Source: Acanthochlamys bracteata
Taxonomy: Eukaryota; Streptophyta; Magnoliopsida; Pandanales; Velloziaceae
Length of the DNA stretch: 64,000 nucleotides
Assembly: GCA_019914995.1 (NCBI GenBank)
Contig: CM034130.1
Coordinates: 124,001 to 188,000 of the forward strand
Direction of reading: 5' to 3'
Part shown: positions 43,806 through 62,992 of the stretch, in pieces
Layout: every line of letters begins with the position of its first letter
Numbering within the stretch: position 1 is the stretch's first letter
The notes under the pieces: generated by a model
Seen by the model: only the letters and a program-made list of their open reading frames with translations
The model's database searches: none
What the model was told of the DNA's origin: nothing
Translations under genes and position numbers: made by a program

Positions 43806-45923
43806 CTACTTGTGCAGGATACCCCTCTTTTGAAGTTTAGGTCTCTTGTGGGACTGGTTCTGAGGTAGAAAAGCAAAGACAAACAGCTAGAAAATGTAAA
43901 GCACATAGAGAGTAAATAGGAGTTCAATCAGAACCACACTAGCAAAAAATTCTACCTTGTGCCTTTCCAAGGCCTCTACATCTGTCCTTTCTTTCCAGTT
44001 GCTCTTACGCAATTTTATAGGACGGTTACCGACATACTTTCCTACAACCATGTGTGCAACAAATGTATTTTGGTAAAACATATATAAGAAATACATTACA
44101 CATAGAAACATAGTACCATTCATTTCTTTCATTGCTGCTGCAAGATCTGAAGGGTTCGCAAAACTAACGAAGCCATAGCCCTTGGCCTTTCCAGTCCTCT
44201 TGTCCCGGATCACCTAGATAGCATAGTTCCACATTCTATTAAATAAAACACAATCTAATTTCTAAATTGTAGAAAGATCAACTTCAGTCTGAATTTCTAA
44301 ATTGTAAAAAGATAAATGAAGAGCAAATCAATGAAATAAGCATGCATGACTGTATGCTCTTAAGAGTACAGGGGAGGTGGGGACATGCCTCTATATCATT
44401 ATAGGCACATGTATAATTGCCATTGTCAAATCAAATAAATGGCACAAGCTCTAGAGCATAGGACAATAGAAAGACACTAAAAAACTTACAACTTTGGAAA
44501 GGAAATCACAGCACCAATAGATATCATCATAGACTCATTAGACGAGTAGGACAATACGATCAATAAATAGTTGAATTGACAAGAATAATAAATCCTCCAC
44601 AGAGAACATTCGGATACACAACTAAGAGAACCAAAAACTCGATGGACAACTAAATATGAAGAAAACGGCAATCCATAGGATGTCACTGGCAGATACTCAC
44701 TCTAGCCATGTTGAAGGAAGGATATTTTGAAAATGCTTTAGACAGGACATCATCATTTACTTCGTTACCAAGATCCCCACAGAATAATCGAAAATCATCT
44801 GCAGAAAACAAGTATAGAGTTTATTTCTCCAGGACTTTCTAAACTTAGCTGAAGGCAGTCTTGAGAACAAAGTGCGCAACATAAAAGCAGCATCAGAGAT
44901 TTTCCCTAAAAAGAATGGCAGTTCATATCTAATTTAATGTCCCTCTATCTAGCAACAGGTTTGGTAGAACTTCTCTTCCTTTCCGCATTACACGTAGTTA
45001 GAAATTATTTTCAATTTACAGAGTTGATATCAAAATCCATAAAACATACTTTCCGGCCACTCAGCCAACGTTGAGTCCTCCCAACTTTGTCCTGCTGCCT
45101 TACGTGGTATCGCCTTCTTTTTAGTCTCGGCTTTATGCTCAACTTCGCTGCTTGCAAGAGCTGCTTTTACACTTTCCAGAGCCTCTGGTGTGATGGTTTG
45201 TGCATCTCTTTGAAACAATTGTTGAGCCTATTAAATCATATTACACAAAACAGTTAGGACTTTATAATAGGGAATCGTAACAATCACCGGATTGCGGGAC
45301 AGGCAGTACAATAACATTAATACTATGATGCACCAAGAACAATGATTCTTGTACAAACAACAATGCCACAGGTTTTGAAATCATGATATAAAACTATAAG
45401 TTTGCACGTTAACAAGCGTAACAAAAAGTGCCCCATGGCCCTCAGTGGGTTTTAAATAAATCAAATCAGCATACATGTTTCAGGGCAGGCAAGTTCTACT
45501 GCGAAGGAAATCTTTCAGACAAAGCCTTTTGAGCTATTACATTTCAAATATGAAAAAACCATTTCTAATGAATGGGCTAAGATGAACAACCAAAACTACT
45601 CTAAAGATAGAATTAATCAATAACTAATAGCATGATACATAATTTTCAAAAAAAATTTATCGTAATCACTACAACGATTTAGTGTCTCTCATTCAGGCCA
45701 TTAAAAAAGATTGCAACTTTTTACGGTATATGAGCATGCAATATTCAAAATAAAATTAAATAGAATTAAATCTTTATACCTGGTGGTATTGTGGGAGAGA
45801 GTAGACGGCGGGTGGTGGAGGGATGTTGATTGGAGGGGCGGTGAAAGGGGAAGGAAAGTAACCACCACCGGCGTTATAACGCGGCGCTGATCCTGATCCC
45901 GAGGCAGAGCCGCTAGAAGACAT
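43806..45923 (-). CDS. RNA-binding protein, RBM42-type (single RRM)
   Basis: Six exons (45923-45780, 45227-45050, 44798-44701, 44213-44117, 44041-43956, 43859-43806) join in frame to 218 residues. The N-terminus is Ser/Gly/Pro-rich (GGGYFPSPFTAPP, INIPPPPAVYSLPQYHQ). A linker (AAGQSWEDSTLAEWPEND) leads to one RRM at about 109-190, with RNP2 LFCGDL and RNP1 KGYGFVSF. A basic tail follows (NQSHKRPKLQKRG). Domain order and the WEDSTLAEWPE/DDFRLFCGDLG region match RBM42 homologues, which bind pre-mRNA and take part in splicing. The gene is intact. Exons 3-6 were copied, introns included, into the chimeric pseudogene near 52.1-53.0 kb. Confidence 0.9.
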
Positions 45924-46492: not shown

Positions 46493-48060
46493 TTCAGCAA
46501 TTCATTCAACCATTTTTTGTATTTCTCTTACGCAGACTCGATTCTAGGTTTCTTCTCCGCTCGGCTCCGCCCCACCCCGCCAGCGATTTCTTGTTCCGGC
46601 AAGCGTGCTTCTTCTCCGACGCCGATCTTCGCTTTCTCGTCTCTTCTCTTAACCACAGCGAACTTTGTAGCCGTTGTGCGGCACCAATCAAGCTCGAGAG
46701 CGCGGAGATGACTGCGAAAAGGTGATTAAATTCTTCTTCTTCTTTCAAAATTCAATTGAATAATTTTCTTTTCTTTCTGTTTTGTTTTGAAACGATTGGA
46801 TTGAAGTTGAGTGCTGGAATCTAGAAATTTTTTTTTGCCGTTTAGTGTTTCCGGAAAAAATTGAAAATTTTTTAGTCGGTGGTGGTGGCAGTTTATAGTT
46901 GATAATTATGATATTTTGTTATGATATTTAATGTTTGTAATATTGATTGTCTGTGGCAGTTTGTATATGAAGGATGTTTAGTGCTCGGTTGAATGTCATA
47001 GTTTTGTTTTCTCTGTTTTTCTTCGTGTTCTGTAAATTTGTGTGTTTTGTTAGAATACAATTTCTTTAACTAGATTTGGATGGAAATCATGTCTACACGG
47101 ATCATTACCGGCAAAAAAAAAATTCCTTTGAATTTTTTTTGTCTGTCTTCGTTATGATATTTCTGAATTTTTGTTTTTTTAACCCCATTAAATACGTAAA
47201 GTTGCTGGATCAAGAGAAATTTCTGTGCAGTGTTTAGAGATATAACTTTTTCCAAGTTTTGAACAAAAATGGAGTTCAAATTTATACTTGAATGACTTTG
47301 GGCAGTTGTGCTACTTTTCTTCTGATCTTGCATGATATGAATCATAAAATCTTAAGGTAGATGTTAAACTAATAGATGTCTTTTTTGATTAGTTTAAGTG
47401 TTTTTTTAAGAAAAACACTTTCTGAATATGTATATTAATATTATATCGTAAAAAATATTTTAGTTCTTTATAATTTTTTAACTTTTCAGTTTTTTTTCAA
47501 ACACTTTTCTTCAATTTTTTTAGAAAAAATTAAATTTATTCAAACACATACTTTTTTTTAAAAAAAGTTTTCAATTATTTTTTTAAATATTAAAAAAATA
47601 ATTTTTATCATAAAAATTAAAACTTTTAAATTTATCCAAACGGCACCTCATTCTTCACTGACACCGTTTTTTCTAAGTTTTCTTCTCTCCTCCTCCCCAA
47701 ATCGACCGTGGTACGATCTGTAGATCCGGCGAGGATTTTCTTCTCCGACGCCGATCTTCAGTCCGTGTCTCCCTCCTCTCCTTTTCAGGTGTCGATCTTT
47801 GTATTAATACAAAATTTCACCCGAATGCTTTCATGATTTAATTCAATCATCTTTCTTTGCGGCAGCATACTTGTATTGAGATGCTGATGATTTTTCGCCG
47901 TTTGCCAAGCTGGATTATTTGGTTTTTTTATCATTCTCTGGTCTGGAGTTACCTGACACATACCACAATTACAACAAGCGCGCCATTTGCCTTTTCCCCT
48001 TCATTTTTATTTTATCAGTCATGATGCCATCCGATGGAAGTCATCCTCTTCCAATTAATT
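45924..48060. other. Spacer with possible divergent promoter and leader exons
   Basis: Right of the RBM42 start is its promoter, then on the + strand a GC-richer leader (about 46.51-46.71 kb) with ATGACTGCGAAAAG|gtgatt at 46708, which could be a 5-codon first exon; no continuing exon was found. A second leader-like block (about 47.68-47.79 kb) shares cttctccgacgccgatcttc with the first (near 46609-46629). About 47395-47645 is A/T-only DNA typical of small element bodies. Perfect TA repeats occupy about 46443-46488. Confidence 0.35.
46402..46520. repeat. TA microsatellite bracketed by direct repeats
   Basis: The words ttcattcaaccatttttt occur at about 46402-46419 and again at about 46502-46519. 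Between them is a (TA) tract of roughly 45 bp plus short unique edges. The direct repeats may be a simple duplication or the footprint of an insertion. Confidence 0.6.
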
Positions 48061-48062
48061 TC

Positions 48063-48521
48063 TTGCCTGTTTTGATCGTAATTTAGCCCCATATTTGTTG
48101 AATTGCGGTGTTATAGGCCATTGGTTAAATTGATCTACCCAGTCTATATTAAATCCGTAGATCCCAGTTTATCTTAAATCTGTAGATCTTTGTGTTCTAA
48201 TAACGTAGTATATGCTCTATGGTAAGTAACACGGTAGGTTCACTCATGCTTTAAGGTCTGTGTCAGAATTAGAGATGGATGCCTTACTACTCGTTCATGA
48301 TAAGCTTTTTATTGCCTGATTTGATCGTAATTTAACCCCACATTTGTTGAATTGGGGTGATATAGGCAATTGGTCAAATTGATCCTAGTTTATCTTAGAT
48401 ATTTGTGTTCTGATAAAGTAGTATATGTTCTATGGTAATTAACACATAGAGTCACTCATGCTTTAAGGTCTGTGTCAAAATTAGAGATGGATGCCGTACT
48501 ACTTGCTCTTGATAAGCTTTT
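48063..48521. repeat. Tandem duplication of a unit of about 210-250 bp
   Basis: Unit 1 (about 48063-48310) and unit 2 (about 48312-48521) share ttgcctg, ttgatcgtaattta, atttgttgaattg, gtagtatatg and actcatgctttaaggtctgt, then agagatggatgcc and gataagctttt, in the same order. Unit 1 carries an extra internal part in which aaatc(c/t)gtagatc is itself repeated. It lies directly upstream of the left PPR copy, in what would be its promoter or leader intron. Confidence 0.75.
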
Positions 48522-48617
48522 GTTTGCTATATGATGGCATGCAGGATTCTTTAGAAACTCTCACGATCCTGTTCAGGCAGAAGCATAGAAAAAGGGCGTC
48601 TTTTATACAAACCAGAC

Positions 48618-50971
48618 ATGAAGAAAGCTCTTGATCAGACTGTTCGTGAACTGTAAGTGCTGGGTCCCTTGCAACTAACCCTTTGTTTTTTAAACAAGTA
48701 TTTAGCCATACCTGCTGGTGCAATATCCAATTTGTTCACTCTCAACTGCAGAAAGAGGGAAGTAAACAAGAAAGTCCTAAAGGTTCCAAGTTTTGAACAG
48801 AAGGTATGCAGCATTGCCACCACTGCCGCACCCAATTCCGAACCAGCTCCTTCTTCCCTACATTCCTATCTTTCCGTTGCTGCCAATTCCTCGCAAGGTG
48901 GTGGCAGTCGGCGGCAAACGGAAAAATCGAAGCCTCTGGATGAGACGATCTGTTACATGATGTCTCACAGGCCATGGACGACCCGTTTGCAGAACTCTAT
49001 CCGCAATCTGGTTCCCAACTTCGACAATGTCCTCGTTCTCGCTGTTTTACGGCGATCTGGATCTGAAGGACACCCTGATCGCGCAATCTGATTCTTCCGG
49101 TGGGTTGAGAAGACCGGATTCCGTCATGACTCCGACACCTGCCGCGAAGTCATCTCCATTCTGTCCTCTGCATCCATGCTCAACCATGCCCGCTGCATCC
49201 TTCTCGACGAAATGCCTAAACGATCAATTCAACCTGATGAACCCATGATAGTCTCTCTTTTGCAGGCCTATGGCAGAGCACGAATTCCCCAGGAGGTCGT
49301 CAAGCTCTTCCATCGCATGCCGGAACTTGGCGTCTCTCGTTCCTCTGCATCTTACGACGCCTTCTTCATGGCTATACTCCCTTGTGGCCGCATTGCAATG
49401 GCGAAGCGCGTCTTCAATGCTTTGCTTCGTGATGGGGTTCCTCCCACTCTCTCCACCTACAACACACTCATTTGGGGTTTCTGTGTTTCTGCGAAGATGG
49501 ACACAGCCAACCGCTTCTTTGCAGACATGAAGGAAAGAGGAATTTCGCCTGATGTAATCACTTACAACACTTTGCTTAATGGCTGGGTCAAGGCAAAGAA
49601 ACTGGATGAGGCACAGAGGGTGTTTGCTGAAATAACTGGCGCAGGTTTCTTGCCAAATTGTGTCTCTTACAACATTCTGATCAAAGGATATGTCTCTGAA
49701 GGCAAAATTGATGATGGGTTGTGCATATATGCTGATATGGGCGAGAAGGGCATCTTGCCGAGCCCAAGGACTTACTCTTCTCTGCTTCTGGGTCTATGCG
49801 ATGTGAAGGAGAAGGCTGGGGACGCCCGCAAACTCCTTAACGAGATGGCTGACCGCAAAATGACACCCAAATACCAGTCCTTTTTCTTGAGGCTCATCAA
49901 CTGTTTGTGCAAAGCTGGTGATATGGACGGTGCGTTGGATGTCCACAGGACGATGGACAGGTTCAGTATTGTGCTGGATCCATCCCATTATGGTGTCCTG
50001 ATGCAGAGTTTGTGCAAGGTCGGAAAGCAGATGGCTGCTGTTGAACTGATGGATGAGCTTGTCAAGAACAGGACATTGCTACATCCAAAAAGCTTGGCCA
50101 TGGACGCAGCGGCCTACCAACCTATTATTGAGTACCTTTGTGGTCATGATCACACACAGAAAGCCGAAACATTCTTCAGGCAGTTGCTGAAGAAAGGAGT
50201 TGATGATAAGGTTGCATTCAATCATCTAATACGTGGACATGCAAAGGAGGGGAAACCAGAGTCAGCATTCGAGCTTCTTGGAATCATGAAGCGCTGTCGG
50301 ATAGAGACCGAATCTGAGGCCTATGCCCTGCTTGTTGAGAGCTACTTGAAGAAGGGAGAACCAGCAGATGCACGTACAGTGTTGGATTGTATGATCGAGC
50401 AAGGGCACTTGCCTAGCGCCTCACTCTTCAGGTCAGTGATGGTGGCTCTTCTCAATGACGGAAGGGTTCAGACGGCTAGCAGGGTTATGAAGACAATGAT
50501 TGAGAAGGGGTTGAAAGAAAACATGGATATGGCACATAAGATTCTAGAAGCACTTTTCATGAGGGGGGGCATGTCGAGGAAGCCCTTGGTCGCATCAATC
50601 TTATGTTGATGAATGAATGCTGTCCTCAAGTTGACCGCCTTTTGGTTCACCTCTGTGAGAACGGTGATCCTGTTGCAGTTCACAAACTGGCAGACTTCGG
50701 AGTGGACAGAGACTGTGACATTAGTTTCGGGACATATGACAAAGTGCTGCAGACTCTTGATACTGCTGGGAAAACACTCTCAGCATACTCCATACTCTGC
50801 AAGATCAAGGAGAAGGGCCAAGTCGTGAACAAGAAAGGCTGTGAAGTTCTGATCAAGAGACTGAATGCTGAAGGAAATACAAAGCAAGCAGACATTCTTT
50901 CAAGGTTGCTTTCTGGACAACACTCATTGGGCTCCAAGAAGGGCAAGAGAGCTTCAATGGAAGCATTTTAA
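48618..50971 (+). pseudogene. Left copy of the ENTH-PPR gene, inactivated
   Basis: Nearly identical to the intact gene at 56407-58749, with the same first exon (48618-48652), short intron and second exon (from 48752). Two lesions break it. A CGA codon in the intact copy is TGA here (49089-49091), stopping translation at about residue 125. The run gaGGGGGca of the intact copy has seven G here (50563-50569), a +2 frameshift. Several missense changes also separate the copies (for example DTFF versus DAFF). Homology to the right copy begins only about 10 bases before the ATG, so the upstream region is different and the native promoter may be missing. Internal ATGs could allow a truncated PPR protein, but the frameshift would still alter its C-terminus. 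Confidence 0.9.
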
Positions 50972-51420: not shown

Positions 51421-51584
51421 TATGAAAAATGTATACCAAAAAAAAACAAACATTAACAGTGGAGGAAGGGAAAAATAATCTATACAGTCAGATCAATATT
51501 GGACTACCATCCTCCTCTCTCTATGATCCTCATGCATCTCGAGCAAAGCATTCTGTCAAGAAAACCACAAACTTGATTCATGTG

Positions 51585-52122
51585 TCGGCTTTGGTAGAAT
51601 GCCTTGATCAAGGAGTGGAACATACTCAAATGCACAACTAAACCATGTTGCAGCATTTCTTCAAGAAGGCTTTTTGCTTATGCATGCTTCTTACACCTGA
51701 CTAATCCACACGGTAGACATGCAACAATCTATCATAACGCCATATGTTTTCACATTTGGTTCTCTGCAACAATTTGAGTGAACCGTAAGATTTTGATCTT
51801 CTCTGCCATACAAAAATACCACGGCAAGGTTGTAGATGTCACAACATTAGCCAAGTCCTCTGCTTCTGAGAATTCTTCTTGCCAAAGGAAGCCTCCCACC
51901 TTTGCAAAGGCTATGAATCAGGATGCTGCAAGTTGGAGTATTTGAACCCTTGCCCTTCTTAAACAGGTCAGTAAAGAGCTTCAGAACTGACATCCACTTT
52001 CCCTTTCACACAGTCTGCTCATCACGGTGTTGCAGTTCACAACATCATCATCCCATTGCAAATCAGCACTCCTCTCTACCTCGACGTAGGCTGTCGAGGA
52101 GTATATTTAAAAGTTACAGATG
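51585..52122 (-). pseudogene. Left copy of a minus-strand PPR relic
   Basis: Homologous to about 59,340-59,941. On the minus strand it retains pieces such as gggcaagggttcaaatactc and the helix-pair sequence found in the right copy, but lacks about 29 bp present there (agcataaacttggcttgcc and following). It has stops and is non-functional. It ends exactly at the junction with the RBM42 fragment. Confidence 0.65.
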
Positions 52123-53012
52123 ATTTTCGATTGTTCTGTGGGGATCTTGGTAACGAAAGTAAATGATGATGTCTTGTCAAAAGCATTTTCAAAATGTCCG
52201 TCCTTCAACAAGGCTAGAGTGAGTATCTGCCAGTGACATCCTATGGATTGCCGTTTCTTCATATTTAGGTGTCCATCGAGTTTTTGGTTCTCTTAGTTGT
52301 GTATCCGAATGTTCTGCGGAGGATTTATTTTATTCATGCCAATTCAACTATTTATTGATGGTATATATTGTCCTACTCGTATAATGAGTCTATGATGAAA
52401 TTTCTTGGTGCTGTGATTTCCATTCCAAATTTGTAAGTTTTTTAGCGTCTTTGTATTGTCCTATGCTCTACAGTGTGTGGCCATGTATTATATTTAACAA
52501 TGGCAATTATACATGTGCCTATAATGATATAGAGGCCTGTCCCTGCCTCCTTAAGAGCATACAGTCATGCATGCTTATTTCATTGATTTGCTCTTCATTA
52601 ATCTTTTCCCAATTTGCAAATTTCAGACTGAAGTTGATCTTTCTACAATTTAGAAATTAGATTGGGTTTTATTTAATAGAATGTGGAACTATGCTATCTA
52701 GGTGATCTGGAACAAGAGGACTGGAAAGGCCAAGGGATATGCTATCTTGCAGCAGCACTGAAAGAAATGAATGGATTATCTTTATACGTACGTGTGATGT
52801 ATTTCTTATATATGTTTTACCAAAATACATTTCCTGAACATAATGGTCGTAGGAAAGTATGTCGGTAACCGTCCTATAAATTTGCGTACTGGAAAGAAAG
52901 GACAGATGTTGAGGCTTTGGAAAAACAAAAGGTAGAACTGAGCTGTTTGTCTTTGCTTTTCTACCTCAAAACCAGTCCCACAAGAGACCTAAACTTCAAA
53001 AGAGGGTGTCAT
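52117..53012 (+). pseudogene. RBM42-type gene fragment (exons 3-6 with introns), broken
   Basis: Copied from the RBM42-type gene (reverse complement of about 43,830-44,800). Exon 3 starts at the fusion (atgattttcgattg) and has an extra A in gaaagtaaatg, a frameshift. Intron 3 is kept with the same gtgagtatctgcc start. Exon 4 (about 52693-52770) has lost about 30 bp covering RNP1 (aagggatatgctat.. in place of the KGYGFVSF codons). Exon 5 (about 52853-52935) and exon 6 (to about 53009) follow, the intron between them shortened. Retained introns show DNA-level copying, not retroposition. Orientation is opposite to the parent. Confidence 0.88.
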
Positions 53013-53455
53013 TATGATGGACTCATTATGAGTTCAATCTTAATAGGAGTAATTGACTACTGAGATATTTGTCAGGGAGATGTTCCACTACAAAGTGATT
53101 TATCTGCTGAGCACATGATATTTGAAGGTATGTCATATACGTGCTTTCTTCATCTTTGTCGATTATTATTTATGGGTTGTCTTGTTTGTTTGTTTGTTTT
53201 TCTTTTGTTGGGCTTGCATCATTTTGTTTTCATTAGTAAAGTGAAAATTTGGCCTTTCTATTGAGTTGTTAACTTCCTGCCTGAGTTTAATTAATATTCC
53301 TTTTCATTTGTTTAAAACTATACGGTTGTAATAGTCTATTGTACTTGAAAGATTACATACATTTTTAGATGCGCCAGCAAAAAAGAGAAAGGATTGAAGT
53401 CAATGTTGAAATTTGAAAATCTTACTACTGTTATTCTTTTTTATTTTTCTGGAAA
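53010..53455 (+). pseudogene. ABCI gene fragment (exon 3 with flanking introns)
   Basis: Matches the reverse complement of about 61,715-62,160 of the ABCI gene: end of intron 2, exon 3 (about 53070-53121, GDVPLQ then SAEHMIFE) and most of intron 3 (ggcctttctattgagttgtt, ttaattaatattccttttca). It abuts the RBM42 fragment on the left. Exons on either side are missing. It covers a different part of the parent than the fragment at 30.97-31.76 kb. Confidence 0.85.
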
Positions 53456-55488: not shown

Positions 55489-56406
55489 CAAACCAACGAT
55501 ACAAAAATGAGTTATAATAGCATTAAACTCATATACTATGAATGGCCAGACCAACTACAACAAGGAAACACTGCAGAAAATGACGCTTTTATGTGGATCC
55601 TAGACAGCTGTATGACAACAACCGCATAACAAAATTCTAAAGAACAAACCAAATCATCCAATGTTCTAAAAGAAATCTACATAACAATTACAGAAATGCT
55701 ACTAAATCCCAAATTTGTTCTACCACCTTAACCGAGAGCATCTTACCTATTAAATACATAGGGAAAAAAAATTATAACACAAAAATTGAACAATCTTCTA
55801 ACAATATTAACGAAAAAAAGAGTTCAGATTGATATTAATAGGAAAAAAAATTCATAGCACACAAAAGTTGAACAATCCCACAAATTCCTTCTGGCCCATT
55901 ACCTCGAGATGGAATCGACAGCGGCGGGAGGAGCACCAATGAGCGACGGATTAGAGTTCAGATTGATAGAAAGATCTGACGAGCTCGATCTGGCGTCGGG
56001 GAAGATAACGTGAGCAGATCGTGGTCAGGATAACAGGAAGGAGAAGGAAAAGAGAAAGATCGGCGTCGGGCAAGTAAATCGCCGCTTCAGGAGAGCGAGG
56101 CGAGTGGGTGCGTGCGAGAGAGAACGAGAGAAATGAAGAGCTGCTTCGGGTGGGTTGGGCTATATCAACGCTTGTAATTTCGTAAACTTGGATGGACACA
56201 TATGTCATTGGTAAAGCCGCCGCGCAGCTTTATAATTCATTTTTTTTTTCGAAGGATTTACGCAAAATACCTAGGGTTATTCTCCAAATCTCTCCGACGG
56301 CTCTCTCCCTCTGGTTCTTAGTTCTTCCCGCTGTCTTCTCCATCTCTCTCTATTCTCTCGGCAGCAGAAACAACGACAACAACTCTAGAGAAGACAGAAA
56401 CCAGAC
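55489..56406. other. Spacer and promoter/5' UTR of the intact ENTH-PPR gene
   Basis: To about 55.9 kb this is A-rich spacer with a partial local repeat (agttcagattgatattaata). About 55.9-56.16 kb is GC-richer; on the minus strand it could be a leader of the fragment chimera (donor-like ctcgag|gtaatg at about 55904). About 56.2-56.4 kb is pyrimidine-rich with a CT-rich leader ending gacagaaaccagac before the ATG, a typical plant 5' UTR. This leader is not shared with the left copy. Confidence 0.45.
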
Positions 56407-58749
56407 ATGAAGAAAGCTCTCGATCAGACTGTTCGCGAACTGTAAGTGCTAGGTCACATGTCAACTAACCCTTTGTTTTTTTTAGCCATACCTGCTGATG
56501 CAATATCCAATTTGTTCACTCTCAACTGCAGAAAGAGGGAAGTAAACAAGAAAGTCCTAAAGGTTCCAAGTTTTGAACAGAAGGTATGCAGCATTGCCAC
56601 CACTACCGCACCCAATTCCGAATCAGCTCCTTCTTCCCTACATTCCTATCTTTCCGTTGCTGCCAATTCCTCGCAAGGTGGTGGCAGTCGGCGGCAAACG
56701 GAAAAATCGAAGCCTCTGGATGAGACGATCTGTTACATGATGTCTCAGAGGCCATGGACGACCCGTTTGCAGAACTCTATCCGCAATCTGGTTCCCAACT
56801 TCGACAATGTCCTCGTTCTAGCCGTTCTACGGCGATCTGGATCTGAAGGACACCCTGATCGCGCAATCCGATTCTTCCGGTGGGTTGAGAAGACCGGATT
56901 CCGTCATGACTCCGACACCTGCCGCGAAGTCATCTCCATTCTGTCCTCTGCATCCATGCTCAACCATGCCCGCTGCATCCTGCTCGACGAAATGCCTAAA
57001 CGATCAATTCAACCTGATGAACCCATGATAGTCTCTCTTTTGCAGGCCTATGGCAGAGCACGAATTCCCCAGGAGGTCGTCAAGCTCTTCCATCGCATGC
57101 CGGAACTTGGCGTCTCTCGTTCCTCTGCATCTTACGACACCTTCTTCATGGCTATACTCCGTTGTGGCCGCATTGCAATGGCGAAGCGCGTCTTCAATGC
57201 TATGCTTCGTGATGGGGTTCCTCCCACTCTCTCCACCTACAACACACTCATTTGGGGTTTCTGTGTTTCTGCGAAGATGGACACAGCCAACCGCTTCTTT
57301 TCAGACATGAAGGAAAGAGGAATTTCGCCTGATGTAATCACTTACAACACTTTGCTTAATGGCTGGGTCAAGGCAAAGAAACTGGATGAGGCACAGAGGG
57401 TGTTTGCTGAAATAACTGGCGCAGGTTTCTCGCCAAATTGTGTCTCTTACAACATTCTGATCAAAGGATATGTCTCTGAAGGCAAAATTGATGATGGGTT
57501 GCGCTTGTATGCTGATATGGGCGAGAAGGGCATCTTGCCGAGCCCAAGGACTTACACTTCTCTGCTTCTGGGTCTATGCGATGTGAAGGAGAAGGCTGGG
57601 GACGCCTGCAAACTCCTTAATGAGATGGCTGACCGCAAAATCACTCCCAAAGACCAGTCCTTTTTATCGAGGCTCATCAGCTGTTTGTGCGAAGCTGGTG
57701 ATATGGACGGTGCGTTGGATGTCCACAGGACGATGGACAGGTTCAGTATTGTGCTGGATCCATCCCATTATGGTGTCCTGATGCAGAGTTTGTGCAAGGT
57801 CGGAAAGCAGATGGCTGCTGTTGAACTGATGGATGAGCTTATCAAGAACAGGACATTGCTACATCCAAAAAGCTTGGCCATGGACGCAGCGGCCTACCAA
57901 CCTATTATTGAGTACCTTTGTGGTCATGATCAGACACAGAAAGCCGAAACATTCTTCAGGCAGTTGCTGAAGAAAGGAGTTGATGATAAGGTTGCATTCA
58001 ATCATCTAATACGTGGACATGCAAAGGAGGGGAAACCAGAGTCAGCATTCGAGCTTCTTGGAATCATGAAGCGTCGTCGGATAGAGACCGAATCTGAGGC
58101 CTATGCCCTGCTTGTTGAGAGCTACTTGAAGAAGGGAGAACCAGCAGATGCACGTACAGTGTTGGATTGTATGATCGAGCAAGGGCACTTGCCTAGCGCC
58201 TCACTCTTCAGGTCAGTGATGTTGGCTCTTTTCAATGACGGAAGGGTTCAGACAGCTAGCAGGGTTATGAAGACGATGATTGAGAAGGGGTTGAAAGAAA
58301 ACATGGATACGGCACATAAGATTCTAGAAGCACTTTTCATGAGGGGGCATGTCGAGGAAGCCCTTGGTCGCATCAATCTTATGTTGATGAATGAATGCTG
58401 TCCTCAAGTTGACCGCATTTTGGTTCACCTCTGTGAGAACGGTGATCCTGTTGCAGTTCACAAACTGGCAGACTTCGGAGTGGACAGAGACTGTGACATT
58501 AGTTTCGAGACATATGACAAAGTGCTGCAGACTCTTGATACTGCTGGGAAAACACTCTCAGCATACTCCATACTCTGCAAGATCAAGGAGAAGGGCCAAG
58601 TCGTGAACAAGAAAGGCTGTGAAGTTCTGATCAAGAGACTGAATGCTGAAGGAAATACAAAGCAAGCAGACATTCTTTCAAGGTTGCTTTCTGGACAACA
58701 CTCATTGGGCTCCAAGAAGGGCAAGAGAGCTTCAATGGAAGCATTTTAA
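56407..58749 (+). CDS. PPR protein (At2g37230 type) with an epsin ENTH-derived N-terminus
   Basis: Exon 1 56407-56441 and exon 2 56532-58749 join in frame (CT|A) to 750 residues. Residues 1-30 (MKKALDQTVRELKREVNKKV, then LKVPSFEQKV) match the first helix and start of the plant epsin ENTH domain, where the intron also falls in the first exons. After Val30 the protein switches to a Ser-rich segment, then KPLDETICYMM and RPWTTRLQNSIRNLVP, and a long tract of PPR motifs (for example TYNTLIWGFCVSAKMDTANR, SYNILIKGYVSEGKIDDGL), ending near SRLLSGQHSLGSKKGKRASM. The PPR body follows the Arabidopsis At2g37230 order to the end. PPR proteins bind organellar RNA. Here the usual targeting presequence appears replaced by a basic amphipathic helix, so location is uncertain. 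Reading through the 90-bp intron stops at once after REL; an ATG at 56446 inside it opens an alternative start in the PPR frame. Confidence 0.85.
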
Positions 58750-59330: not shown

Positions 59331-60120
59331 AGAAGCCGTCCTTGTAGAATGCCTTGATCAAGGAGTGGAACATGCTCAAATGCACAACTAAACCATGTTG
59401 CAGCATTTCTTCAAGAAGGCTTTTTGCTTATGCATGCTTCTTACACCTGACTAATCCACACGGTAGACATGCAACAAGCTCTGTGGTGAAATGCGTATCT
59501 TATTGACCTTCGGAATAAAATGATTGCTTCTGAAAACTTGCCCTGTGCACACAGACAATCTATCAATTTGAGTGAACCGTAAGATTTTGAACTTCCCTGC
59601 CATACAAAAATACCGCGGCAAGGTTGTAGATGTCACAACATTAGCCAAGTCCTCTGCTTCTGAGAATACTTCTTGCCAAACGAAGCCTCCCACCTTTGGA
59701 AAGGCTATGGATCAGGATGCTGCAAGTTTGGGTATTTAAACCCTTGCCCTTCTTAAACAGGTCAGTAAAGAGCTTCAGAGCTGACATCCACTTTCCCTTT
59801 TCACACAGTCTGCTCATCACGGTGTTGTAGTTCACAACATCAGCATCCCATTGCAAATCAGCACTCCTCTCTAGCATAAACTTGGCTTGCCAAACTTTGG
59901 GTCATCGACGTAGGCAGTCGAGGAGTATATTTAAAAGTTACAGATGTTAGGCACAGGCCATTTTCTAGCAGAACTTCCAGCTGCCGAAGTGCTTCATCCT
60001 GCCCACACTTGCAAAGAGTGTCCAGATAGATGCTGTAAGAAATTGCATTGGGCTCCCTTTCTACAATTGCATTCTGACCTCATCAAAATATTCATGCCTG
60101 CATTTACCCCTATGAGTATA
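59231..60120 (-). pseudogene. Minus-strand PPR relic (right, longer copy)
   Basis: Conceptual minus-strand pieces, in order from 60,120 down: VEREPNAISYSIYLDTLCKC then GQDEALRQLEVLLENGLC; ERSADLQWDADVVNYNTVMS then RLCEKGKWMSALKLFTDLFK; TQTCSILIHSLSKGGRLRLA; and near 59,300 FYHVKERKLASTV. These are typical PPR helix pairs, but frames change and stops intervene. It differs from the neighbouring intact PPR, so it comes from another PPR gene. It was duplicated together with the ENTH-PPR gene. Confidence 0.75.
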
Positions 60121-60127
60121 CTGTATG

Positions 60128-60660: not shown

Positions 60661-62992
60661 CTACCGATAGTAAGCCATATGTCTAGATGATCTGAAAGGT
60701 GATGAATTGGAAGGAGTAGACTTGATAGGTTGAGTTTTCACAGTTTCCTTCTTTCGATTTCTGGTCTCTGAACGAAGCCATGATTCAACTACCGACAGCA
60801 AGTTGTTTGTACTTTTTAACTCCTGAACATCAACAAGTTTACAGGACCTTTTCAACTCTCCATCTTGAATGTATGCAATATCTGTAGCCCAAGTCTCCAA
60901 ACCATCAAAAATATGTGTGGCATAGACAATGGTCGCTCCTCTCTGTAAAAAAACCAAAGAACAGCATGAAAAACACATGCCATAAACCACAAGTGGCAGG
61001 AAAAGTTATACATATAGGGTTTAGTTCACAACCTGTTCACATTCCTCTTTGAAAAAGTCGAGCAAATCCATTCTTGTGACGACATCAAGGTCAACAGTAA
61101 TTTCATCAAGCAAGAGGACCTAATGTTTGTTATACAAGGTATCAGGATAAGTGAATAAGAAAACAATTATATAGTCTGCTATTATAACAGAACTCCAACA
61201 CATAACATACAGGCTACTCTTAATTGTGTTATTTGATTCAGAGCCATGATAGAAAAAGGGCAAGGCTGCTAGGATACAAACTGCGAAAAAGTGACTCCCA
61301 ATCTCCAGGTTTTGCTCACAGATTATGTTTAGCTGGGGGCAAAGTTAATGTCCGTTAGGTAAGATGGAATGTTTACAAACTAATTTGCACAAAGTTTGGA
61401 TCGCCTCAGCCCATATTCTTAGTTTTCCTTTTTTGATGAAATCATATATAAAGAATGTAAGTTCACGACAGAAAATTCTTAATACATTCCAAGTTTCCAA
61501 TATTATAACAAAGACATGAATGAAGGAAAGTGAAGATAACCTTGTACGGAGAAAGAAGGCCCATGCAGATTTGCACACGTCGGCGCTGCCCATCAGAAAC
61601 TTTATGCATCCGCCATTGCAGATCAATGTCTAGCAGGTTAATCAGTTTCTCTCTCCTAAGAGGATCAATCCCTTCAACTATAGAAGATTTCATCAAGGAA
61701 AACAGAAAAAAAAAAAAGAGTAACAGTACTAAGATTTTCAAAATTCATAATTGACTTCATCCCTTTCTCCTTTTTGTTGGTGCATCTAACAATGTATGTG
61801 TAATCATTCAAGTACAATAGACTATTACAACCATATAGTATTAAACATATGAAAAGGAATATTAATTAAACTCAAGCAGGAAGTTAACAACTCAATAGAA
61901 AGGCCAAATTTTCACTTTACTGATGAGAATAAAATGATGCAAGCCCAAACGAAAAACAAACAAACAAGATAACCCACAATAATAGTTGACAAAAATGAAG
62001 AAGGTAGGTCGAACTTCCATGTATATGACATACCTCCAAATATCATGTGCTCAGCAGAGAAATCACCTTGCAGTGGAACATCTCCCTGACAAATTACTGT
62101 ATATCTCAGTAGTCAATTACTCCTAATAAGTTTGAACAGTCATAATGAGACGATCATAAATTCATTTCCCAAATTTCGAGTTTGTCAGTTACTAGTTCTT
62201 GCATCTGATGTTATGTGCACGCTCTGCACAATGCTCTAGATGTAACTATATCTAGCTTTATCATTTGTTGATCTGGAATCAGAAGGTTTGATACTAATTA
62301 TTGTAGAACCAGTACTCCAACTTTATGCAAACCGGTAAAACTGTATCACTTGAATGCCACGGCTCTTCATAGTTATTTGACTGTCTATTTGATTTCCCTA
62401 CTATCTGCTTCATTCTGAACTACAGATTGTAAAAACAAACAAAAACAATAAGCTTTCAAATATTAAGTTAATTATAAATTTGAAAATTGGAAAATTAGAA
62501 GAGTAGACTATGTAAACGGAAAAAATAGCTACGACAGAACTGAAATTAACTAGAAAAGAAATAGCGAGAGAATGAATTCAACAATAATGAAATAAAGAGA
62601 GAATGAAAACTGACAGCAGATCCGATGGTTTTGCTCCAAGATCCACCAAGATAAGAGAGATCACCACTGCAGACGAGATGCGTATCATGAAAAGCCGAAG
62701 AATTCAGCACACGGACAACATCCCTCCCACCAACCATGTGCTTCCCTGCTAATATCTTCAGCAACGTTGTCTTGCCTAAAGTAATCAGACAACCTAAACA
62801 AATTAGGCCTGAAGAAAGAAAAACAGAGAAACAAACAAATTTCCAGAGAAATTGAACGAACGAACCTGATCCGTTGGCACCAATGAGAAGACAGCGAGAA
62901 CCTGGAGAGATTTCGAGAGTGAAGTTTGCGAATAACGGTCGGTCGAACTCGTATGCGAAATTCATCAACGAAACTTTGATCCCTCCTTCCAT
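60661..62992 (-). CDS. ABC transporter I family ATPase, ABCI19/20/21 type
   Basis: Six exons (62992-62866, 62775-62615, 62085-62034, 61677-61541, 61119-61033, 60942-60661) join in frame to 281 residues, a single soluble nucleotide-binding domain. Walker A is GANGSGKTT (38-46, split by intron 1). The signature region is [11 protein letters not shown] (140-150), a variant of LSGGQ. Walker B is [11 protein letters not shown] (161-171) with catalytic Glu165. The H-loop is YATHIFDG (His198). The C-terminus is Ser-rich and basic (SSRHMAYYR). No membrane segments are present. Plants have a small ABCI group with this layout; Arabidopsis ABCI19-21 act in a cytoplasmic complex near the ER and affect cytokinin response (literature memory). 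An upstream in-frame ATG (63097) adds a low-complexity stretch and is less likely. Fragments of this gene occur at 30.97-31.76 and 53.01-53.46 kb. Confidence 0.92.

Follow-up and report, generated by a model that had tools for sequence, protein, structure and literature searches.

An epsin gene start joined in frame to the gene for mitoribosomal protein mL102 near a chromosome end of Acanthochlamys bracteata

Introduction

How did a PPR gene of the plant Acanthochlamys bracteata come to begin with the first codons of an epsin gene, and what would such a beginning do for the protein behind it? The question is raised by positions 56407-58749 of the window, the whole stretch of 64,000 nucleotides analysed here (contig CM034130.1, termed C5, positions 124001-188000), and it was followed through a genome of 195.5 Mb in 557 contigs. 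According to the original prediction, the promoter-proximal part of an epsin gene, first intron included, had been joined in frame to a gene of At2g37230 type that had lost its presequence. The match to epsin DNA on C5 described below bears this out, the intron being the first coding one and the loss being that of the presequence start. The analysis leads further: the PPR body was identified as mitoribosomal protein mL102/rPPR5 and the donor as the epsin gene nearby on C5, and the ancestral site on C5 is one from which the gene has been lost.

Structure of the chimeric gene

Judged by its sequence, the ENTH (epsin)-PPR chimera at 56407-58749 is real. The gene, referred to as copy B, lies on the plus strand and has two exons, which give 750 open codons once joined, with no stop and no frameshift, as had been predicted for one of two tandem copies. 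Exon 1 (56407-56441) holds the first 11 epsin codons plus two bases of the twelfth, so that the intron follows the second base of codon 12 and not codon 11 as first proposed. The intron (56442-56531, 90 nt) has GT-AG ends (GTAAGT...TGCAG) and corresponds by homology to the first intron within the coding region of C5 epsin; its splicing is deduced from the sequence and from conservation with that donor. Exon 2 (56532-58749) starts with an epsin-derived part running from the rest of codon 12 to codon 29 (56532-56583), followed by ten bases, GTATGCAGCA, which are the start of the next epsin intron and are now coding (56584-56593). The remainder (56594-58749) comprises a remnant of the native presequence region, the PPR body and the stop codon. 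On the alignments the fusion junction lies at or within 56584-56593. An assembly error was rejected, as the second, tandem copy (copy A) has the same junction and yet the two copies have diverged from each other.

Ahead of the coding region lies a leader (56292-56406, plus strand) that resembles, at 71% and up to about 56398, the leader exon of the donor epsin on C5. The first ATG downstream of 56241 is the epsin ATG at 56407, which opens the chimeric frame, and the spliced frame has its next methionine at residue 81, which already falls within the stretch aligned to mL102. Any product with the whole body is therefore expected to carry the epsin-derived head. From 56446 on, the intron of copy B can itself be read through in the exon 2 frame, and it contains an in-frame ATG at 56458 that neither copy A nor epsin has.

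Upstream of the leader, comparison with the epsin gene gave short weak similarities only, the best other match being of 19 bases (E 0.005), and the idea that the epsin promoter was carried into copy B was rejected on this ground. A TATA-like word near 56231 came from a sigma-70 scan, the pattern of which is bacterial while the host is a plant. In addition, a dispersed leader-like repeat lies just 5' of copy B at 55871-56208, with pieces of 70-90% similarity on several other contigs; the genome search with 55650-56300 listed 16 matches, the query among them.

The epsin donor

The DNA of the head, intron included (56398-56593), matches the C5 epsin gene at 88-90% (E 4e-72). Since the match spans the intron as well as the exons, the head is not a chance resemblance. 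A genome search with 56200-56640 found five places: copy B itself, copy A (92%), C5:67431-67633 on the minus strand (88%), C5:68432-68538 on the minus strand (71%), which is the leader of the same C5 gene, and an epsin duplicate on contig C3 (69%). The donor is called epsin because the C5 and C3 places are closely followed, on their own strands, by matches to the ENTH family (PF01417); we take it to be of the epsin-2 type. The donor gene is still present at C5:67.6-63 kb and is homologous to the chimera in noncoding DNA, both intron and leader. Its homology covers the leader, the first two coding exons, the intron between them and the ten bases of the next intron. Of the 29 epsin-derived codons, the sole one that encodes a residue differing from the donor is that of I26F.

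The remainder of the ENTH domain and the tail of the C5 epsin are both missing in the chimera. The Pfam ENTH model has 124 positions, of which the chimera holds 29 epsin residues, and no Pfam ENTH match was found within the first 147 residues of copy B at E up to 1. By this comparison the head of the chimera is not an ENTH domain, and the suggestion of a phosphoinositide-binding-like N-terminus is thus left unsupported. Searched for in the PDB with a limit of E 10, the head of 30 residues gave nine weak unrelated matches and neither epsin nor mL102, the query being too short to inform either way.

Copy B is without about 0.8 kb of the donor between leader exon and coding exon. Loss of the 5'UTR intron through a spliced intermediate was considered and rejected, as the join does not coincide with the probable splice sites of epsin (donor GTAGCT, acceptor ATGCAG, judged by eye) and falls in an AAA overlap. 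We read the missing stretch as a deletion with its join in this short overlap.

The mL102 body

The body of copy B matches mL102/rPPR5 of the plant mitochondrial large ribosomal subunit in the PDB (9evs, E 9e-221; 9gyt, E 2e-219), and the natural PPR chains that come next in this search score far lower. Residues 65-734 align with mL102, and 344 of the 670 query residues are identical in the alignment with 9evs, the Arabidopsis protein. Alignment starts no earlier than residue 78 of the Arabidopsis chain and residue 71 of the other PDB chain, and the first 29 residues of copy B come from epsin. The native N-terminal presequence is missing in copy B, with epsin sequence in its stead up to about residue 32. 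A review equates mL102 with AT2G37230 and describes delayed seedling growth upon its deficiency (PMC6953067). As Arabidopsis short of mL102 is, in that account, delayed and not dead, the gene could be lost. In cauliflower, mL102 is described as contacting the 26S rRNA mostly via its N-terminal part (PMC12672651).

With the body as query, a search of the genome (E up to 1e-20) listed 42 matches, with 61 of 748 candidates scored. The mL102-like places among the matches listed are three, namely copy B, copy A (in two pieces) and a relic on C3, and only copy B is open throughout. The other 38 matches listed, at 24-40% identity, appear to be other PPR genes, as expected. Among the matches listed from these 61 scored candidates, no unfused mL102 copy besides the C3 relic was found.

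The broken copy and its surroundings

Copy A (48609-50971, plus strand) is a tandem copy of the chimera with the same junction. The two copies are 97.1% identical over 2855 alignment columns, copy A matching copy B from 48609 onwards. Copy A is broken by a TGA at 49089-49091 and by a 2-nt insertion, which causes a frameshift, at 50563-50564. Upstream of it, at 47806-48608 on the plus strand, leader and part of the epsin 5'UTR intron are kept, partly doubled in tandem; about 0.8 kb of the 5'UTR intron region is retained there, and this is the stretch that copy B is without. The region 47806-48813 contains two overlapping stretches that both align to one part of the donor, a partial tandem duplication of the epsin 5'UTR intron. 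Further upstream, the end of a high-copy repeat of about 50 bases lies at 47600-47650, and 40 matches were listed for 47600-47830.

Downstream of each copy lies a piece of a convergent PPR gene on the minus strand (PPR2, the neighbour of mL102 on C3): at 59332-60127 behind copy B and at 51502-52078 behind copy A, the latter a DNA match to C3:11582328-11583014. These pieces indicate that a segment, and not the gene alone, reached the new place.

The region is rich in repeats. Two long inverted-repeat pairs (43823-44801 with 52117-53006, and 53032-53451 with 61703-62137) lie near the chimeric copies; flanking both at 7-9 kb, they are possible substrates of rearrangement. Capture by a transposable element of Pack-MULE or Helitron type may have played a part, although no such element ends flanking the captured segment were seen among the 25 longest of 36 inverted-repeat pairs or at two repeat loci examined. 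C5 starts with telomere-type repeats, with 388 CCCTAAA words in its first 4 kb (C5:1-4000), and no such array was present at three other contig ends inspected (the end of C3, the start of C1 and the end of C5). The array at the start of C5 makes the window subtelomeric and puts all events within 190 kb of the chromosome end.

The relic, the emptied site and the order of events

The C3 relic (C3:11583499-11584233) is 53% identical to the body and has five stops. Before the conserved body it reads ...LARLCSSSTIASTLAPDEELAP..., a presequence-like start. It is without the epsin head, and its alignment with copy B begins about at the junction, where the relic reads RLCSS-STIAS and copy B KVCS-IATT.

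The blocks on C3 and C5 are collinear, with epsin and further matches on one side and a RING/vWA gene on the other (this and other neighbour names were assigned by eye). In the C3 interval 11580704-11586312 lie the relic and PPR2, together with the greater part of a DYW-type PPR gene, while the matching C5 interval is reduced to about 160 bases (84492-84655). At its edge, C5:84235-84469 holds a degenerate scrap of the DYW-type PPR gene, which is open on C3. The scrap beside the shrunken collinear interval implies that C5 formerly held the block, and on this comparison the matching C5 site is one that has lost its mL102 gene. As the C3 duplicate within the collinear block keeps a non-epsin N-terminus, the fusion is derived. 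The view that the epsin start had been captured, and was not ancestral, is thereby upheld.

The donor differs from copy A by a K80 distance of 0.071 over 296 sites and 0.070 over 90 sites, and by 0.14 over 235 sites of a stretch further upstream. Copies A and B differ by 0.046 in the intron (4/89) and 0.040 in the 3' flank (19/484). Between C3 and C5, dS is 0.31 for the RING/vWA gene and 0.61 for the DYW scrap, and it is 0.58 between copy B and the C3 relic. Taken with the shared junction, these divergences give the order of C3/C5 duplication, fusion and A/B duplication. In this order the fusion is younger than the C3/C5 duplication and older than the A/B duplication, the latter as had been concluded before from the junction common to both copies.

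The head as a possible targeting signal

The head forms a basic amphipathic helix. Its residues 1-18 have a helical moment of 0.70, a value reached by 18 of 5000 shuffles, and its net charge is +5 over 30 residues. The relic's own N-terminus, the start codon of which is uncertain, has a moment of just 0.25, and the measure is no validated predictor. Acidic residues are scarce in mitochondrial presequences. The head has four Asp/Glu, two Arg and seven Lys in its 30 residues, a composition that departs from the pattern of few acidic and several arginine residues and speaks against a presequence. So does the description of lysine as unable to replace arginine in plant presequences (PMC7031408). 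As the head is a basic amphipathic helix in the place of the native presequence, we infer that it now acts as a mitochondrial import signal. The old processing region appears to be retained and the part ahead of it exchanged.

Fate of the intact copy

To copy B as the remaining intact nuclear mL102 gene, with the start of the native presequence replaced by 29 epsin codons and with a product that is imported, we give about an even chance. The ground for this reading, namely the fusion, the donor, the junction, the order in time and the gene loss at the matching C5 site, can be followed in the DNA itself. More tentative, at a little short of even, is the fuller proposition that the membrane-inserting helix of an endocytic adaptor became the presequence of mL102 in one rearrangement and that the sole intact mL102 of this plant depends on it.

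Rather unlikely, and the best placed of the alternatives, is that copy B is a young pseudogene or a gene being lost, in which the fusion spoiled targeting, mL102 was dispensable or replaced, and a stop has not yet arisen. The original prediction had taken the open frame as a sign of selection or recency, and only part of the comparison between the copies agrees with selection. In exon 2, 37 of 2218 sites differ between copies A and B, against 23 of 573 in intron and 3' flank (Fisher P 0.0017). Exon 2 has a single indel, where the noncoding rate (6 in 573) would predict 23; when the expectation is scaled by the substitution ratio it becomes 9.7 (P 0.0007), and 8.0 when one poly-A indel is also excluded (P 0.003). 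The 30 codons of the head carry two synonymous and no replacement changes. This depletion of indels, the unchanged head protein and the 750 codons of copy B without stop or frameshift all speak against decay, and retention of the reading frame of copy B is supported by them. Between the copies, however, divergence at synonymous sites is also lower than in noncoding DNA (P 0.047), and some of the low coding divergence may therefore be due to gene conversion.

The substitutions within the body point the other way. Their dN/dS between copies A and B, a check put forward with the original prediction, is 0.82 (9.5 synonymous and 26.5 replacement changes over 718 codons, one stop codon set aside), and changes polarised by the relic are two synonymous and six replacement in copy B, and one and nine in copy A. 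At the 27 codons with a replacement difference, the stop of copy A included, copy B agrees with Arabidopsis at nine and copy A at six; copy B alone departs from copy A, Arabidopsis and the relic at, for example, residues 354 and 391. Decay is further favoured by the state of copy A and the C3 relic, both already broken, and by the survival, with delayed growth, reported for mL102-deficient Arabidopsis (PMC6953067). The dN/dS of 0.24 between copy B and the relic counts against decay, though it mostly reflects time older than the fusion. Hence the depletion of indels favours retention of the frame, the dN/dS of 0.82 gives no sign of recent constraint on the residues of copy B, and copy B may be decaying.

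It is improbable that copy B is expressed and useful elsewhere, the epsin helix sending the PPR protein to membranes, plastids or the cytosol for a new function. The head presumably derives from the lipid-binding region of epsin, and its mixed lysine-rich and acidic helix is unlike a textbook presequence, both of which would suit such a role. Against it stand the lack of a recognisable ENTH domain in the head, the extent of identity with Arabidopsis mL102 along the aligned residues (344/670), and the finding of no second copy serving the mitoribosome among the genome matches listed. Retention of the intron with translation from the ATG at 56458, which would give another N-terminus on the same body and which the open intron frame allows, is very improbable, because that ATG is missing from copy A and epsin, the GT and AG ends are conserved in both copies and the donor, and the first ATG of the leader is the one at 56407.

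Proposed history and comparison with known systems

For copy B as the surviving, imported mL102 gene, the following course can be proposed. Following the C3/C5 duplication, a stretch comprising mL102 and a portion of PPR2 would have been copied or moved from the C5 site to about 172-184 kb and fused there with a duplicate of the 5' part of epsin. At the old C5 site mL102 would have been lost and the C3 copy would have decayed, and the chimera would have been duplicated in tandem before copy A broke. Copy B would now be transcribed through the epsin-derived leader, its 90-nt intron would be spliced, and the basic amphipathic helix of epsin would direct the product into mitochondria. There the head may be cut off close to the former cleavage site region, so that the mature protein of the ribosome would hardly have changed.

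Presequences gained from other genes are on record for rice rps11-1 (from atp2), Arabidopsis sdh3 (from hsp70) and carrot rps10 (from hsp22) (PMC2631504). In these captures, as in copy B, a nuclear gene for a mitochondrial protein takes N-terminal coding sequence from another gene. The donors atp2, hsp70 and hsp22 encode mitochondrial proteins and their presequences are mitochondrial, and the genes that received these had only recently been transferred to the nucleus. In copy B, by contrast, an existing presequence is exchanged and the donor is a protein of membrane traffic. The 5'UTR of rice OsRpl6-1 is described as acquired via a PIF/Harbinger-like element (PMC2631504), and there too a rearrangement gave the gene of a mitoribosomal protein a new leader. 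The part captured by OsRpl6-1 is, however, a noncoding leader derived from a transposon, whereas copy B took over coding sequence from another gene as well, and the repeats inspected around copy B showed no transposon ends. Replacement of an established presequence by the beginning of an endocytic adaptor did not come up in the literature searched, its absence from print being unproven.

Gain or change of organelle targeting is mostly inferred from old events, and copy B offers a young one that can be read base by base, as the donor, the unfused relic, the vacated site and two fused copies, one of them broken, are all still visible. If copy B is not imported, the loss of a mitoribosomal PPR subunit would have been caught in progress. 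If it is imported, the helix of an endocytic protein can serve as a presequence ahead of an old cleavage region, and the locus of A. bracteata would be a natural swap of targeting signals between unrelated routes.
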